The position numbers were made by a program, and so were the translations under genes. From contig NZ_WOTG01000003.1 of assembly GCF_011516925.1 (NCBI RefSeq), forward strand, positions 1 through 64,000: a stretch of 64,000 nt of DNA. Direction: 5' to 3'. Below are positions 29,624 to 33,788 of this stretch, one piece after another. The stretch's first letter is position 1. Each line of letters starts with the position of its first letter. This stretch comes from Acetobacter fabarum. Its GTDB lineage: Bacteria; Pseudomonadota; Alphaproteobacteria; Acetobacterales; Acetobacteraceae. The notes beneath the pieces were generated by a model. It had not been told where the DNA came from. It was given only the letters and a program-made list of their open reading frames with translations, and ran no database searches.

Positions 29624-30268
29624 TCAGGATGGAATACCGCTCATGACCAGCCTGAATGCAAAAAAGAGGAACACTACCCCCGTAAGCACATCCAGCGCAC
29701 GCACCACTCTGGGGCTGGACAGAACACGACCGAGCGAAAACGCCAGACAGGCCAGAACCGCATACCATGCCACAGCCATAACCACCTGCACCCCCGCCAG
29801 CAGAAGGGAATAGCTGACCCGGTGCACACCTGCGGGAATAAACTGGGCAAAGGCAGTCAGGTCGAACACACCAACAAGTGGGTTAAGGCATGTGGTCAAC
29901 AGCCCACGCTGGTAGCCAGCCCCCATACCGCCAACAGACCGTGCCTGAGCATCTGCCCGCGCCTGATCATGCGCCCCGGCAGAAGGCATAAGCAGGCGCA
30001 CCCCCAGATAAGCCAGATAAAGCGCCCCGGCCCATTCCAGCGCCAGATACAGTGTGGGAGAGGCCGCAACCAAAGCGCTTACCCCAAACGCTGTGCCTGC
30101 TCCCCATATGGCAAGCCCTGTGCCGGTGCCCAGCGCAGCCCCAAGGGCCGCCTTGCGGCTCACATTCATGCCCAGACGGATAACAAGGGCCGTTTCTGTC
30201 CCCGGTGTGAGCACCAGAACACCCCACGCGGCGGCAAAGGTCAGTAAAGGCAAAAAAGCATGGGGCAT
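29624..30268 (-). CDS. LysE/RhtB-family exporter
   Basis: This inner-membrane amino-acid exporter family protein has 214 residues and about six helices. The family start LTFAAAWGVLVLTPGTETALVIRLG and the loop TCLNPLVGVFDLTAFAQFIPAG are visible. The substrate (homoserine, threonine, lysine or other) is unknown. ATG 30268 (MPHAFLPL) is chosen; an upstream in-frame ATG at 30307 lies within a hairpin. It is cotranscribable with the IclR gene downstream (104 bp). Confidence 0.88.
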   Translation of the reverse strand: MPHAFLPLLTFAAAWGVLVLTPGTETALVIRLGMNVSRKAALGAALGTGTGLAIWGAGTAFGVSALVAASPTLYLALEWAGALYLAYLGVRLLMPSAGAHDQARADAQARSVGGMGAGYQRGLLTTCLNPLVGVFDLTAFAQFIPAGVHRVSYSLLLAGVQVVMAVAWYAVLACLAFSLGRVLSSPRVVRALDVLTGVVFLFFAFRLVMSGIPS

Positions 30269-30297
30269 GGCCAGGTCCTGCACAGTGCATTGAGCAA

Positions 30298-30341
30298 CAC
30301 GCACCACCCTATGGCCGGTTCAGCCCATAGGGTGGTGCGTG
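30298..30341 (-). terminator. Perfect 17-bp hairpin upstream of the LysE-like gene
   Basis: Arms at 30298-30314 and 30325-30341 pair without a mismatch (core ACCACCCTATGG). It lies after the stop of the riboswitch-controlled gene (30418) on the minus strand and before the LysE start, consistent with a terminator separating the two, although the T tract is poor. Confidence 0.65.
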
Positions 30342-30417
30342 CTGGGTGCTAAAAAAGAACAAAAGCCACAAAAAGTCCAAGCCAACAGGCAAAAAAATAC
30401 CTGTGATCACTCTAACG

Positions 30418-30864
30418 CTATCTGCGGTTATATAACTCCATAGCCATGTGGCGTGCGCCCACAACGTGCTGGGCCGCAATATAGGCCATGAGCATGGCAT
30501 GGGCTGCGGGGTTTTCGGCCTTTTCCTCTCCCTCCTGCTTGGGGGCACAACGGGCCTTTATGGCCAGACTTAGTGCGTGCTCCAGCATGCCGCGGAAGAG
30601 GGTCTCAAGCTGCAAGGCTCTGGCGCGGTAAGGTAAGGGCTGCTCTGGCATAAACATCCCCAGCATCTGCCCTCCGGCCTGTTGCAAGGCGGCCTCTTCG
30701 GCCAGTTGAGGGGGCTCGCTGAACAGGGCCAGAACCTCCGCCCTGTTCGGCGCAACGCGCAGCAGATGCCGCAGCAAAGGGTGCAGACTCCCCACTCCAC
30801 CCGCTATAGGCGCGGAGCAGGAGGAAGCATGCGGGTAAGAACCCGGCAGTAAATAGCGTGACAT
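30418..30864 (-). CDS. Unknown protein behind a cobalamin riboswitch
   Basis: The 148-residue product is not recognised. It starts with MSRYLLPGSYPHASS from ATG 30864 (GGGGGCTGAG upstream); an in-frame ATG at 30903 is also possible. After a Gly/Pro-rich N-terminus it is mostly helical: LLRHLLRVAPNRAEVLALF, LPYRARALQLETLFRGMLEHAL, MLMAYIAAQHVVGARHMAMEL. Several His and Met residues (H-P-LL-R-H, GQMLGMFM, GARHMAM) could contact a metal or cofactor, but that is speculation. The cobalamin riboswitch at 30915-31096 is directly upstream on the same strand, so expression should respond to adenosylcobalamin. No transmembrane helix or signal peptide is clear. An overlapping frame at 30605-30871 was judged less protein-like. 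Confidence 0.6.
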   Translation of the reverse strand: MSRYLLPGSYPHASSCSAPIAGGVGSLHPLLRHLLRVAPNRAEVLALFSEPPQLAEEAALQQAGGQMLGMFMPEQPLPYRARALQLETLFRGMLEHALSLAIKARCAPKQEGEEKAENPAAHAMLMAYIAAQHVVGARHMAMELYNRR

Positions 30865-30914
30865 CAGACATCTCAGCCCCCGGTCAGTCCCGCCCGGTGA
30901 CATGGTTTGCAAGA

Positions 30915-31096
30915 CGAAGGCAGGTCTCCTGACTTGCAGATACGCGACACACCCTGCCTTCCCGGTTATGCACCAGTGGCCGCCCCTTCCGGGGCAACGG
31001 GTGTAAACTACTGCCTACAGTTGCGGGTACAGTCTCCGACTGACTTCTGGCGAAGCTTACGGTGTTCCCTTTTCATCCGCTCGCGCGGAACCTTCG
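30915..31096 (-). promoter_or_regulatory. Cobalamin riboswitch
   Basis: Read on the minus strand, this is a complete B12-element. P1 closes by CGAAGG (31091-31096 on the plus strand CCTTCG) with CCTTCG (30915-30920). GAAAAGGGAACACCG, GTACCCGCAACTGTAGGC, CCACTGG and the B12 box AGTCAGGAGACCTGCC (30919-30934) all match the known consensus. It lies upstream of the unknown gene at 30418-30864 and downstream of a histidine-phosphatase-like gene. Binding adenosylcobalamin normally turns such elements off. The expression platform probably involves the GC-rich stretch at 30870-30900 before the start codon; this was not folded. Confidence 0.95.
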
Positions 31097-31153
31097 ACTA
31101 ACAGGGGCAGGCTATAGCGGCATGCGCGCTTTGCCGCGAGCAAAAAAACAGGC

Positions 31154-31750
31154 TCACGCCCCTCCCGCCGGCACTCCCAGCAGACCCAAACGCCACTGAC
31201 CCGCATGGCAACTGATCAGGCTGTAACTCAGGGGCGGTACATCAACCCGTGCAGCATGGGCCAGACCCACAGCTCCTTCCCCCTGATACAAAACCCGCAA
31301 CAGCAGATTGCGCACCACAGCAGGCCGTGCCAGCACAATGGCTGCGGGCAGGGTCTGGCTTATATCATCCAGCCAAAGGGTCGTTCTGTGGTAAGATGCG
31401 GCAAAGCTTTCCCCTTCTGGTGGGGCAAAAGTCGCATCGGTTAAAAAGGCATGCTGCTGCACAGGGTTCAGAGCTTGCAGGCCTGTGCCCGCCCATGTTC
31501 CGTAATCCCTGTCCCGCAGGGCATCCTGTGGCCGCATGATGTGCCCTTGCCCATCCGGCACGGCCACATCCGGGGCATAGAATACCGTTAACTGGCTCAC
31601 GGACGGTAGATAAGCTGCGGCTGTCTGGGGGGTATAGCCATGCGCAACCTGTTCAGCCCCATCAGGCAGTACACCCTTGCGCACAACACCGGGTAGTGCA
31701 GACGCACAGCAAAGCAGCTTCAACCCACAAACCTTTCCCGACTGGGCCAT
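31154..31750 (-). CDS. Histidine-phosphatase-fold protein lacking catalytic histidines
   Basis: The middle of this 198-residue protein matches the histidine phosphatase (CobC/phosphoglycerate mutase) fold: LRDRDYGTWAGTGLQAL, PPEGESFAASYHRT and a C-terminal LARPAVVRNLLLRVL. The hallmark RHG near the N-terminus is replaced (LKLLCCASA), and the second catalytic His (usually SHGG) is LARPA, so it should not be an active phosphatase. It is upstream of the cobalamin riboswitch on the same strand; CobC members act in cobalamin assembly, which makes the neighbourhood suggestive. ATG 31750 is preferred; the frame is open upstream but overlaps the divergent lipoprotein gene. Confidence 0.65.
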   Translation of the reverse strand: MAQSGKVCGLKLLCCASALPGVVRKGVLPDGAEQVAHGYTPQTAAAYLPSVSQLTVFYAPDVAVPDGQGHIMRPQDALRDRDYGTWAGTGLQALNPVQQHAFLTDATFAPPEGESFAASYHRTTLWLDDISQTLPAAIVLARPAVVRNLLLRVLYQGEGAVGLAHAARVDVPPLSYSLISCHAGQWRLGLLGVPAGGA

Positions 31751-31832
31751 GACTGTACAGGATTTGCCAGCATGCCGCAGACACCCTACACCATCAGGCA
31801 TTATTTTACCGCGATTTAAAACCGAGAATCGG

Positions 31833-33788
31833 ATGCCCGCTTTTTCCAGCACTTTATCCAGCGCTCTGTGTTCCCGTTTTTCGTGGGTCGCGGTCTGTCT
31901 GGCCGTTTCAGGCTGTGCGGCCCCCATTACCGTGCAGCGCCTGAGCCTGACAGACAGCTACAAGGAACGCAGCCAGAGCACACTGAGCGGGCAGAAACTG
32001 AGCAACACCACCCGTATTGTGCTTGAGCGCCAGAACCTGTTGGCCATATGGAAGAAAAATCCCGAACAGGCACTGGCCATCCTGCGCGCCAGCACACAGG
32101 CGCAGTTTTACACCCCCGACCTGCAGGACCAGCTTTTTGCCCTTGCGGAACTGAACTACCTACTGGGTCGCCAGAACACGGACCGTGCGGCCTTTATGGC
32201 GGCAGCCCTGTACGCCTATGCCTACCTGAACCCCAACGGGCCGGATAACGCAAAACCCAACCCGTATGACGTACATTTCCGCCAGGCGTGTGATCTTTAC
32301 ATGTTTGGCCTGACCGAAGCACTGGGCAACCCTGTGGAGGTGGCACCACAACGCTGGACGCTCCCCTTCGGCACGCTGGACCTGTCCACCACCCCCGCGC
32401 AGAAGGAATGGTACGGCTATACGCTGACCGACTTCCGCCCTACAGCGCGCCTTTCGGTGCGGGGGATAAAAAATATCTATCGCAGGGCGGGGCTGGGGGT
32501 GCCACTGGCAGCAGTACCCCACCCACCAGAAAACAGCCAGATTTCCTTCTCCATTACCGACAAGCTGCGTATTCCCGTTAACCTGCTGCTGGAAATCCCC
32601 AACCCACGCGAGCAGATTTTTACAAACCATATTGATGCGCGCCTGACACTGGCAACCATTGACACAACAAGCAGCCTGCCAACCACAGACGGTGTTATTC
32701 CCCTACAATATGACCAGACCGCCTCCCGCGCGATCAGCCTGAGCAACGCGGTTGACTGGTCCGTGGAATACAAGGGTTTTCTGGATGGCAATCTCTTTAA
32801 CAAACGTGCCCAGCTTATTGCCATAGAACCGCACCAGTATGGCCATATGCCCGTTGTGCTGGTGCATGGCACGGCCTCCAGCCCCGGACGCTGGGCAGAT
32901 ATGGTCAATGACCTGCTGGAAGACCCGCAGATACGCGCACATTATGAGTTCTGGTTTTTCTCCTACGCCACGGGCAACCCTATCCCCTACTCCGCCTTGC
33001 AACTCCGCGATGCCCTGAACCGCACCATCCATGACCTTGGTGGCACGCAGGCAGACCCGGCACTGGGGCAGATTACCCTGATCGGGCACAGCCAGGGCGG
33101 ACTTTTGGCAAAAATGCTGGCCATTGACCCGCATGATGCCCTGTGGAACGGGCTGACCCACCGCGCGCTCTCCAGCCTCCACCTTTCACCCAATGTACGG
33201 CAGTTTCTGGAACAGGCTCTTTTCCCTACCCCCATGCCTGAAGTCAAAAGTGTTGTGTTTATCTCCACTCCACAACATGGCAGTTATCTGGCCGACTTTT
33301 CCATTGCGCACCTTATAGGACGGATGGTCACTTTTCCCGCAGCCATTACGGAAGTGACCCAGCAGGTCCTTGAGGGCAACACCGGCGCGCTCAAGGTGGA
33401 CATGAGCCCCAGCCGTTTTGGCAGTGTTTATGGCATGTCCCCCCGCAGTGCGTTCATACAGGCGCTGGCGACTGTTCCTGTTGTGCCGGATGTGCAGAGC
33501 CACTCCATTATTCCCGTGCTGGGCAACGGGGCGCTGGAAAATGCGGATGATGGTGTGGTGGCTTACGCCAGTGCACATGACCCACGGGTGCAGAGCGAAC
33601 TGGTTGTGCGCAATTCGGGCCACTCCACACAGGCCAACCCGATCACCATTGCCGAAGTACGCCGTATTCTGCTGCAACAGTTAGCAGCCACCATACCCGA
33701 CCTGCACGTTAAGGGGGATATAAACCACACCAACATCATGCGTATTGGTGGGGATTACGTCATCCCCGCCACATGGGCAAAGCCATGA
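31833..33788 (+). CDS. Lipoprotein alpha/beta hydrolase (esterase/lipase-like)
   Basis: This predicted envelope lipoprotein of 651 residues has a signal with lipobox LAVSGC (Cys about residue 27). The N-terminal 300 residues are unfamiliar and partly helical. The C-terminal hydrolase domain has the oxyanion motif VLVHGTASSPGRW, the nucleophile Ser in GHSQGG near residue 421, an Asp in ENADDGVVAY and a His in NSGHSTQ. The substrate could be a lipid or other ester. It overlaps the next gene by ATGA, so the two are coupled. Confidence 0.85.
   Translation: MPAFSSTLSSALCSRFSWVAVCLAVSGCAAPITVQRLSLTDSYKERSQSTLSGQKLSNTTRIVLERQNLLAIWKKNPEQALAILRASTQAQFYTPDLQDQLFALAELNYLLGRQNTDRAAFMAAALYAYAYLNPNGPDNAKPNPYDVHFRQACDLYMFGLTEALGNPVEVAPQRWTLPFGTLDLSTTPAQKEWYGYTLTDFRPTARLSVRGIKNIYRRAGLGVPLAAVPHPPENSQISFSITDKLRIPVNLLLEIPNPREQIFTNHIDARLTLATIDTTSSLPTTDGVIPLQYDQTASRAISLSNAVDWSVEYKGFLDGNLFNKRAQLIAIEPHQYGHMPVVLVHGTASSPGRWADMVNDLLEDPQIRAHYEFWFFSYATGNPIPYSALQLRDALNRTIHDLGGTQADPALGQITLIGHSQGGLLAKMLAIDPHDALWNGLTHRALSSLHLSPNVRQFLEQALFPTPMPEVKSVVFISTPQHGSYLADFSIAHLIGRMVTFPAAITEVTQQVLEGNTGALKVDMSPSRFGSVYGMSPRSAFIQALATVPVVPDVQSHSIIPVLGNGALENADDGVVAYASAHDPRVQSELVVRNSGHSTQANPITIAEVRRILLQQLAATIPDLHVKGDINHTNIMRIGGDYVIPATWAKP

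Follow-up and report, generated by a model that had tools for sequence, protein, structure and literature searches.

The window analyzed is a stretch of 64,000 nucleotides from Acetobacter fabarum, in which a cobalamin (B12) riboswitch of a known kind precedes a gene for a 148-aa protein, designated P0001. We searched the region against Rfam using cmscan. The cobalamin riboswitch model RF00174 matched at 99.4 bits (E 1.3e-23), far above its gathering score of 31.5 bits, and was aligned from position 1 to 189 of 189, including P1, the core, and the B12 box. A complete B12 element with these three parts had been claimed in an earlier note made from the letters of the DNA, and is confirmed by this match; the failure of the Rfam cobalamin model to give a hit, which the note had named as a ground for refutation, was not what we found. 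The span of 30418–31096 proposed there was correct to within 14 nt at the 5' end of the aptamer, and the strand is minus. The 148-residue protein does lie right behind the element, as had been stated, with 37 nt between the aptamer and the start codon. The features of the locus are summarized in Table 1.

Table 1 Features of the riboswitch locus in the window.
Feature	Position	Strand	Basis or remark
LysE-type exporter, next gene downstream	29624..30307	-	PF01810, E 5.7e-27, form starting at 30271
20-nt inverted repeat, 95% complementary, 10 nt between arms, not terminator-like	30295..30344		Between the P0001 and LysE genes
148-aa protein P0001, first gene past the aptamer, no Pfam/NCBIfam family	30418..30864	-	ORF, dN/dS
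Hairpin 3' of the aptamer, stem 30897–30894 with 30883–30880	30880..30897	-	Covariation in 22 loci
Cobalamin riboswitch aptamer, RF00174	30902..31110	-	cmscan, full length
Histidine-phosphatase-like protein, upstream of the riboswitch	31154..31927	-	PF00300, E 1e-8, form starting at 31750

The reading frame of P0001 is real and under purifying selection, as judged by comparison with its closest relative (L031). The two proteins share 77% amino-acid identity, with dN of 0.12, dS of 0.45, and dN/dS of approximately 0.28, and the differences by codon position number 19, 14, and 41. An out-of-frame ATG at 30871 lies 7 nt upstream of the start codon at 30864. L031 does not have the first ATG and keeps the second; thus, the start at 30864 is better supported. 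The distance of 37 nt from the aptamer to the start was the same in all six loci of the window's subtype (the window and five close relatives).

The LysE-type gene downstream is possibly co-transcribed with P0001. The upstream histidine-phosphatase-like protein had a weak match, under the cut-off, to TIGR03162 (alpha-ribazole phosphatase CobC; E 2.7e-6), and its PF00300 match covers only positions 69–191 of the 194 in the profile. The RHG region, which we take to be the catalytic region of histidine phosphatases, seems to be absent, so the protein may be a non-enzymatic relative of CobC.

The A. fabarum genome contains three RF00174 elements, including that of the window. The riboswitch on contig 10 is followed by DUF1636, CobW, and CobN genes. 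Another RF00174 element is located on contig 14 (L071/L002, 408–629, minus strand), ahead of the start of a protein which by eye resembles the carbohydrate porin that A. pasteurianus plasmids carry ahead of CbtB-CbtA; this porin-like gene is cut off by the contig end.

Expression platform

A 4-bp hairpin starts 4 nt past the aptamer, and its 3' arm enters a G-rich stretch (30881–30877). This stretch is a putative ribosome-binding site, approximately 12 nt from the start codon used and approximately 5 nt from the out-of-frame ATG. The hairpin was present in all 22 aligned loci (20 distinct rows), which were taken from 25 aptamers by excluding the near-duplicates L017, L029, and L060, and 80 of 80 cells were paired. 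Compensatory changes were detected in two of the four pairs, from C-G to U-A in three rows and from G-C to C-G in one row. Shuffle controls reached the observed value for paired cells in 0 of 500 cases and that for pairs changed on both sides in 9 of 500, and one of the five measures, further pair types, was no better than shuffles (222/500). When the partner was shifted by 1 to 3 columns, at best 57.5% of the cells were paired.

Within positions 30200–31300, no intrinsic terminator or site resembling one was found. Together with the covariation of the hairpin, this result suggests that B12 probably blocks translation, and control by translational repression fits both observations. The platform of the window, folded in isolation, favors another structure over the conserved hairpin, and the hairpin would thus need the help of the aptamer. 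The direction of control, the translational mechanism, and the role at low B12 are what we infer here: when B12 is plentiful, the riboswitch would repress translation of a small soluble helical protein, and when B12 is low, the aptamer would have no ligand, the hairpin adjoining the ribosome-binding site would open, and the protein would be made.

Distribution and predicted structure of the P0001 family

P0001 gave no match to Pfam or NCBIfam up to E 1, and at these settings the earlier description of a protein of no recognised family is true. When 25 family members were searched against Pfam, NCBIfam, and PHROGs at E 0.1, no single family matched more than two members, and the best E values were 0.012 (PHROGs), 0.023 (NCBIfam), and 0.057 (Pfam). 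No PDB chain was matched by a sequence profile at an E value below 0.015. No description of the family was seen among the listed open-licence papers on B12 riboswitches, MesX/MesD, PepSY/CbtA, and acetic acid bacteria, and the family appears to be undescribed in the literature searched.

Using P0001 as the sole query, we detected homologs in 7 of 299 genomes of the taxonomic family, its own genome included, and no match in the set of genome contigs. One of the seven matches (L006) contained an internal stop and was absent from the profile matches, so it was dropped, and the other six formed the rows of profile A1. The profile search identified 31 strong loci (E below 1e-10 with the profile) in 29 genomes. 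These comprised 21 loci in 20 of 49 genomes of Acetobacter, the genus of the window, and 10 loci in 9 genomes from two further genera, out of 397 sampled genomes of the taxonomic family. Weak rows were left out of the counts, namely four genomes at E 0.0009–0.006 in the 397-genome search and, in the genus search, every row with E above 0.03.

The named loci of a related alignment (n = 23) belonged to Acetobacter, Komagataeibacter, Novacetimonas, Gluconacetobacter, and Gluconobacter, all of which are acetic acid bacteria. A profile of 25 members matched 1 of 385 genomes in a class-wide sample, the window's own. Twenty plasmid records had a family match (16 from Acetobacter, 3 from Komagataeibacter, and 1 from Novacetimonas); the annotation under the match was a hypothetical protein in 18, one of which also overlapped a Rieske gene, and none in the other 2. 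One family copy (L032) has an in-frame stop.

The AlphaFold model of P0001 (pLDDT 83.5, pTM 0.74) was compared with that of a Rieske-linked homolog (pLDDT 86.3, pTM 0.79), whose five helices are ordered as in the P0001 model. Comparison with solved structures gave no match above the level that the tool regards as usual for helical bundles; a resemblance to photosystem I chains was not clear of background and was set aside. The invariant residues in a 17-row alignment include P39, R41, E57, P76, R82, E87, F90, G136, A137, A141, and M142. Neither Cys nor His was invariant or nearly invariant at any position of this alignment, and metal binding is therefore not suggested.

Riboswitches and gene neighborhoods of the homologs

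Repeated occurrence of homologs behind B12 elements had been set beforehand as a test by the earlier note, and we found same-strand evidence of a B12 riboswitch upstream of 29 of the 31 strong loci. These are 27 RF00174 matches and two contig-truncated copies (L022 and L036), in which the contig ends inside the element and the B12 box is kept, with no Rfam match there. Within Acetobacter, 20 of 21 loci had such evidence. RF00174 was directly upstream in 14, and in L060, L061, L063, and L064 it leads a Rieske gene, and the homolog comes after this gene. The exception is A. musti (L042/L062), with no RF00174 in the 18 kb around the copy and no CobN or MesX match in the genome. In the other genera, nine of ten loci had a riboswitch, eight upstream of the homolog and one (L059) via a Rieske operon; the exception (L008) has a transposase-type gene upstream, located at the contig start. 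A 171-aa ORF is located between the riboswitch and the homolog in seven of these eight loci, and only a remnant is left in L005. This ORF (L007, 882–1397, and its relatives) is without any Pfam or NCBIfam family.

Shared descent among the loci means that they do not count as 31 independent events. Their gene contexts are different, which is evidence against simple hitch-hiking. It is highly probable that the P0001 family belongs to the B12 regulon, and the riboswitch and its control of the family are well supported.

The neighbors of the family in relatives are low-B12 genes, namely those for a TonB receptor and PepSY protein, CbtAB, Rieske oxygenase, MesX/MesD, and MetE. One context of the homolog combines a PepSY-type protein with a TonB receptor, which in L021, L023, L034, L037, and L040 has a divergent RF00174 of its own. 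Among seven PepSY-type neighbors scanned, PepSY_TM exceeded the cut-off in L046, L047, L063, L065, and L069 and fell short of it in L048; the L068 protein had no PepSY_TM match and matches by BLAST at 53%. In L046, L065, L068, and L069, the homolog ORF shares 4 bp with the PepSY ORF.

In another arrangement, a Rieske/VanA_C oxygenase gene is followed by the homolog and adjoined by MesX (PF08908) and MesD genes; on an A. ascendens plasmid, 4 bp are shared by the Rieske and homolog ORFs. A short ORF starting with MPVCL was observed between the riboswitch and the Rieske gene in L059, L060, L061, L063, and L064. In Komagataeibacter-type loci, the 171-aa ORF precedes the homolog, near MetE or MesX/MesD genes. 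The gene beside the Komagataeibacter-type Rieske gene was considered as a core methionine synthase and rejected, as its main Pfam match is the MetE N-terminal domain. Such a MetE N-terminal-domain protein (360–428 aa) adjoins the Rieske oxygenase on the same strand in L055 (9133–11311), L097 (8728–10906), and L057 (9824–12209), and RF00174 is directly upstream of it in L097.

A. pasteurianus plasmids carry one RF00174 ahead of porin-CbtB-CbtA and a second ahead of the homolog. The order on pAPA01-011 is riboswitch, porin, CbtB, CbtA, riboswitch, homolog, riboswitch, and two hypothetical proteins, the RF00174 right after the homolog (L095, 6477–7551) leading the last two. CbtA and CbtB are presumably cobalt transport proteins. 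The earlier note had expected the product to be connected to cobalamin or cobalt, and this is supported by the recurrence of the riboswitch (29/31) and by the CbtA/CbtB and B12-independent methionine synthase neighbors.

In the six loci of the window's subtype, the homolog is alone behind the riboswitch and the histidine-phosphatase-like gene is always upstream. The downstream gene is of the LysE type in four (the window, L049, L050, and L053) and a dehydrogenase in two (L051 and L052). Other subtypes have different genes after the homolog, but the position of the small gene behind the riboswitch, or within the operon that it leads, is retained. The homolog in L054 is divergent from CysG, and none of the sought neighbors was found in L062, L066, and L067. 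The window's own copy is without a PepSY, TonB, or Rieske neighbor. No CbtA match was found in its genome, whose Rieske paralogs show only 60% and 52% identity and are not of the B12-linked type.

Proposed role and comparison with known systems

Relatives of P0001 are nearly always behind the same kind of switch, and the protein is thus probably part of how acetic acid bacteria cope with scarce B12. Our leading reading, held tentatively and rated somewhat short of an even chance, is that P0001 is an accessory factor of the low-B12 response, from an apparently undescribed B12-regulon family of acetic acid bacteria under a translational riboswitch. An accessory role at low B12 is by itself likely. 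As to the step, we favor one in which corrinoid or cobalt would be acquired or handled inside the cell; involvement in the B12-sparing methionine pathway comes close to it in likelihood. The co-occurrence with MesX given below also speaks for the leading reading. Counting against it are the neighborhood and genome content of the window's own copy, the absence of conserved Cys or His, the A. musti locus, the in-frame stop in L032, and the 13 of 29 non-carrier genomes that have MesX.

As a separate explanation, the family may serve the B12-sparing methionine pathway as an oxygenase partner that would aid the Rieske enzyme and/or MesX-MesD in making methionine without B12; we regard this as possible, if doubtful. 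The Rieske gene and the homolog do form a single riboswitch-led operon adjoining MesX/MesD, and excerpts of a report on MesD (PMC7857596) state that it needs MesX and oxygen. Co-occurrence among the 49 Acetobacter genomes points the same way: MesX was found in 18 of 20 carriers versus 13 of 29 non-carriers (Fisher p 0.002, ignoring relatedness; split or interrupted copies included). The 13 genomes with MesX and without the family and the two carriers without MesX nevertheless weigh against it. In addition, MesX/MesD were not among the neighbors found at PepSY/TonB and CbtAB loci, except in L063, and the same excerpts state that MesD and MesX suffice in E. coli. The B12-linked Rieske type, defined by a match of at least 76% identity and present in 10 genomes (a partial copy in G375 included), was found in 8 of 20 carriers versus 2 of 29 non-carriers (p 0.009, again ignoring relatedness). 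The MetH activation domain was present in 48 of the 49 genomes, CobN in 41, and the MetE N-domain in 4. Matches to MetH, MesX, and CobN were obtained in the window's genome, and none to the MetE N-domain.

The overlap of the homolog gene with a gene for a redox protein, either the PepSY membrane protein or the Rieske oxygenase, suggests that the two are working partners in some relatives. A broader proposal, which we consider rather unlikely, is that acetic acid bacteria have an undescribed low-B12 module, dependent on oxygen and electrons, in which the protein is a shared partner that links the PepSY membrane reductase, the Rieske oxygenase, and MesX/MesD or MetE. It might, for instance, handle a corrinoid or a methyl-donating intermediate that is oxidized or reduced by these enzymes.

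It is improbable that P0001 is a regulator or sensor, such as an adaptor or anti-activator, tuning other low-B12 genes. A small helical protein without a recognized enzyme domain, found in several different B12-regulated contexts, would suit such a role, but no DNA-binding domain was matched, and overlap with single redox genes would be more typical of partners than of regulators. That the LysE-type exporter is the real target of the riboswitch and the 148-aa gene incidental is very improbable: the LysE gene has the same orientation, is separated from the 148-aa gene by no terminator-like site, and follows in four of the six loci of the subtype, but another gene follows the homolog in the remaining two and in the other subtypes, and the small gene, 37 nt from the aptamer, is under purifying selection. 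A switch controlling a gene other than the 148-aa gene, the second refuting outcome named in the earlier note, is accordingly disfavored.

These results name an uncharacterized protein family whose link to B12 is recurrent and testable, and the genera concerned have vinegar and cellulose producers among them. One regulated set groups uptake genes, the Rieske oxygenase, and B12-independent methionine synthases, and provides a handle on what else the oxygen-dependent MesX/MesD route needs.

Excerpts of an RNA-seq paper on Gluconobacter (PMC5756330) describe one cobalamin riboswitch, ahead of a TonB receptor. Compared with RF00174 riboswitches in general, the aptamer studied here is ordinary: it is full-length, scores well over the gathering score, and has a B12 box and a hairpin near the gene start. 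The difference lies in the controlled gene, which belongs to a family without a model in the libraries searched. The DUF1636 protein on contig 10 of the same genome is likewise a small uncharacterized first gene behind RF00174; however, DUF1636 is another Pfam family and is followed by cobalamin synthesis genes, whereas P0001 has no Pfam match. The B12-independent methionine synthase MesX/MesD (PMC7857596) adjoins the P0001 family in several relatives and is part of B12-independent metabolism, but P0001 matches neither of the two Pfam models, and MesX is another family of approximately 330 aa.
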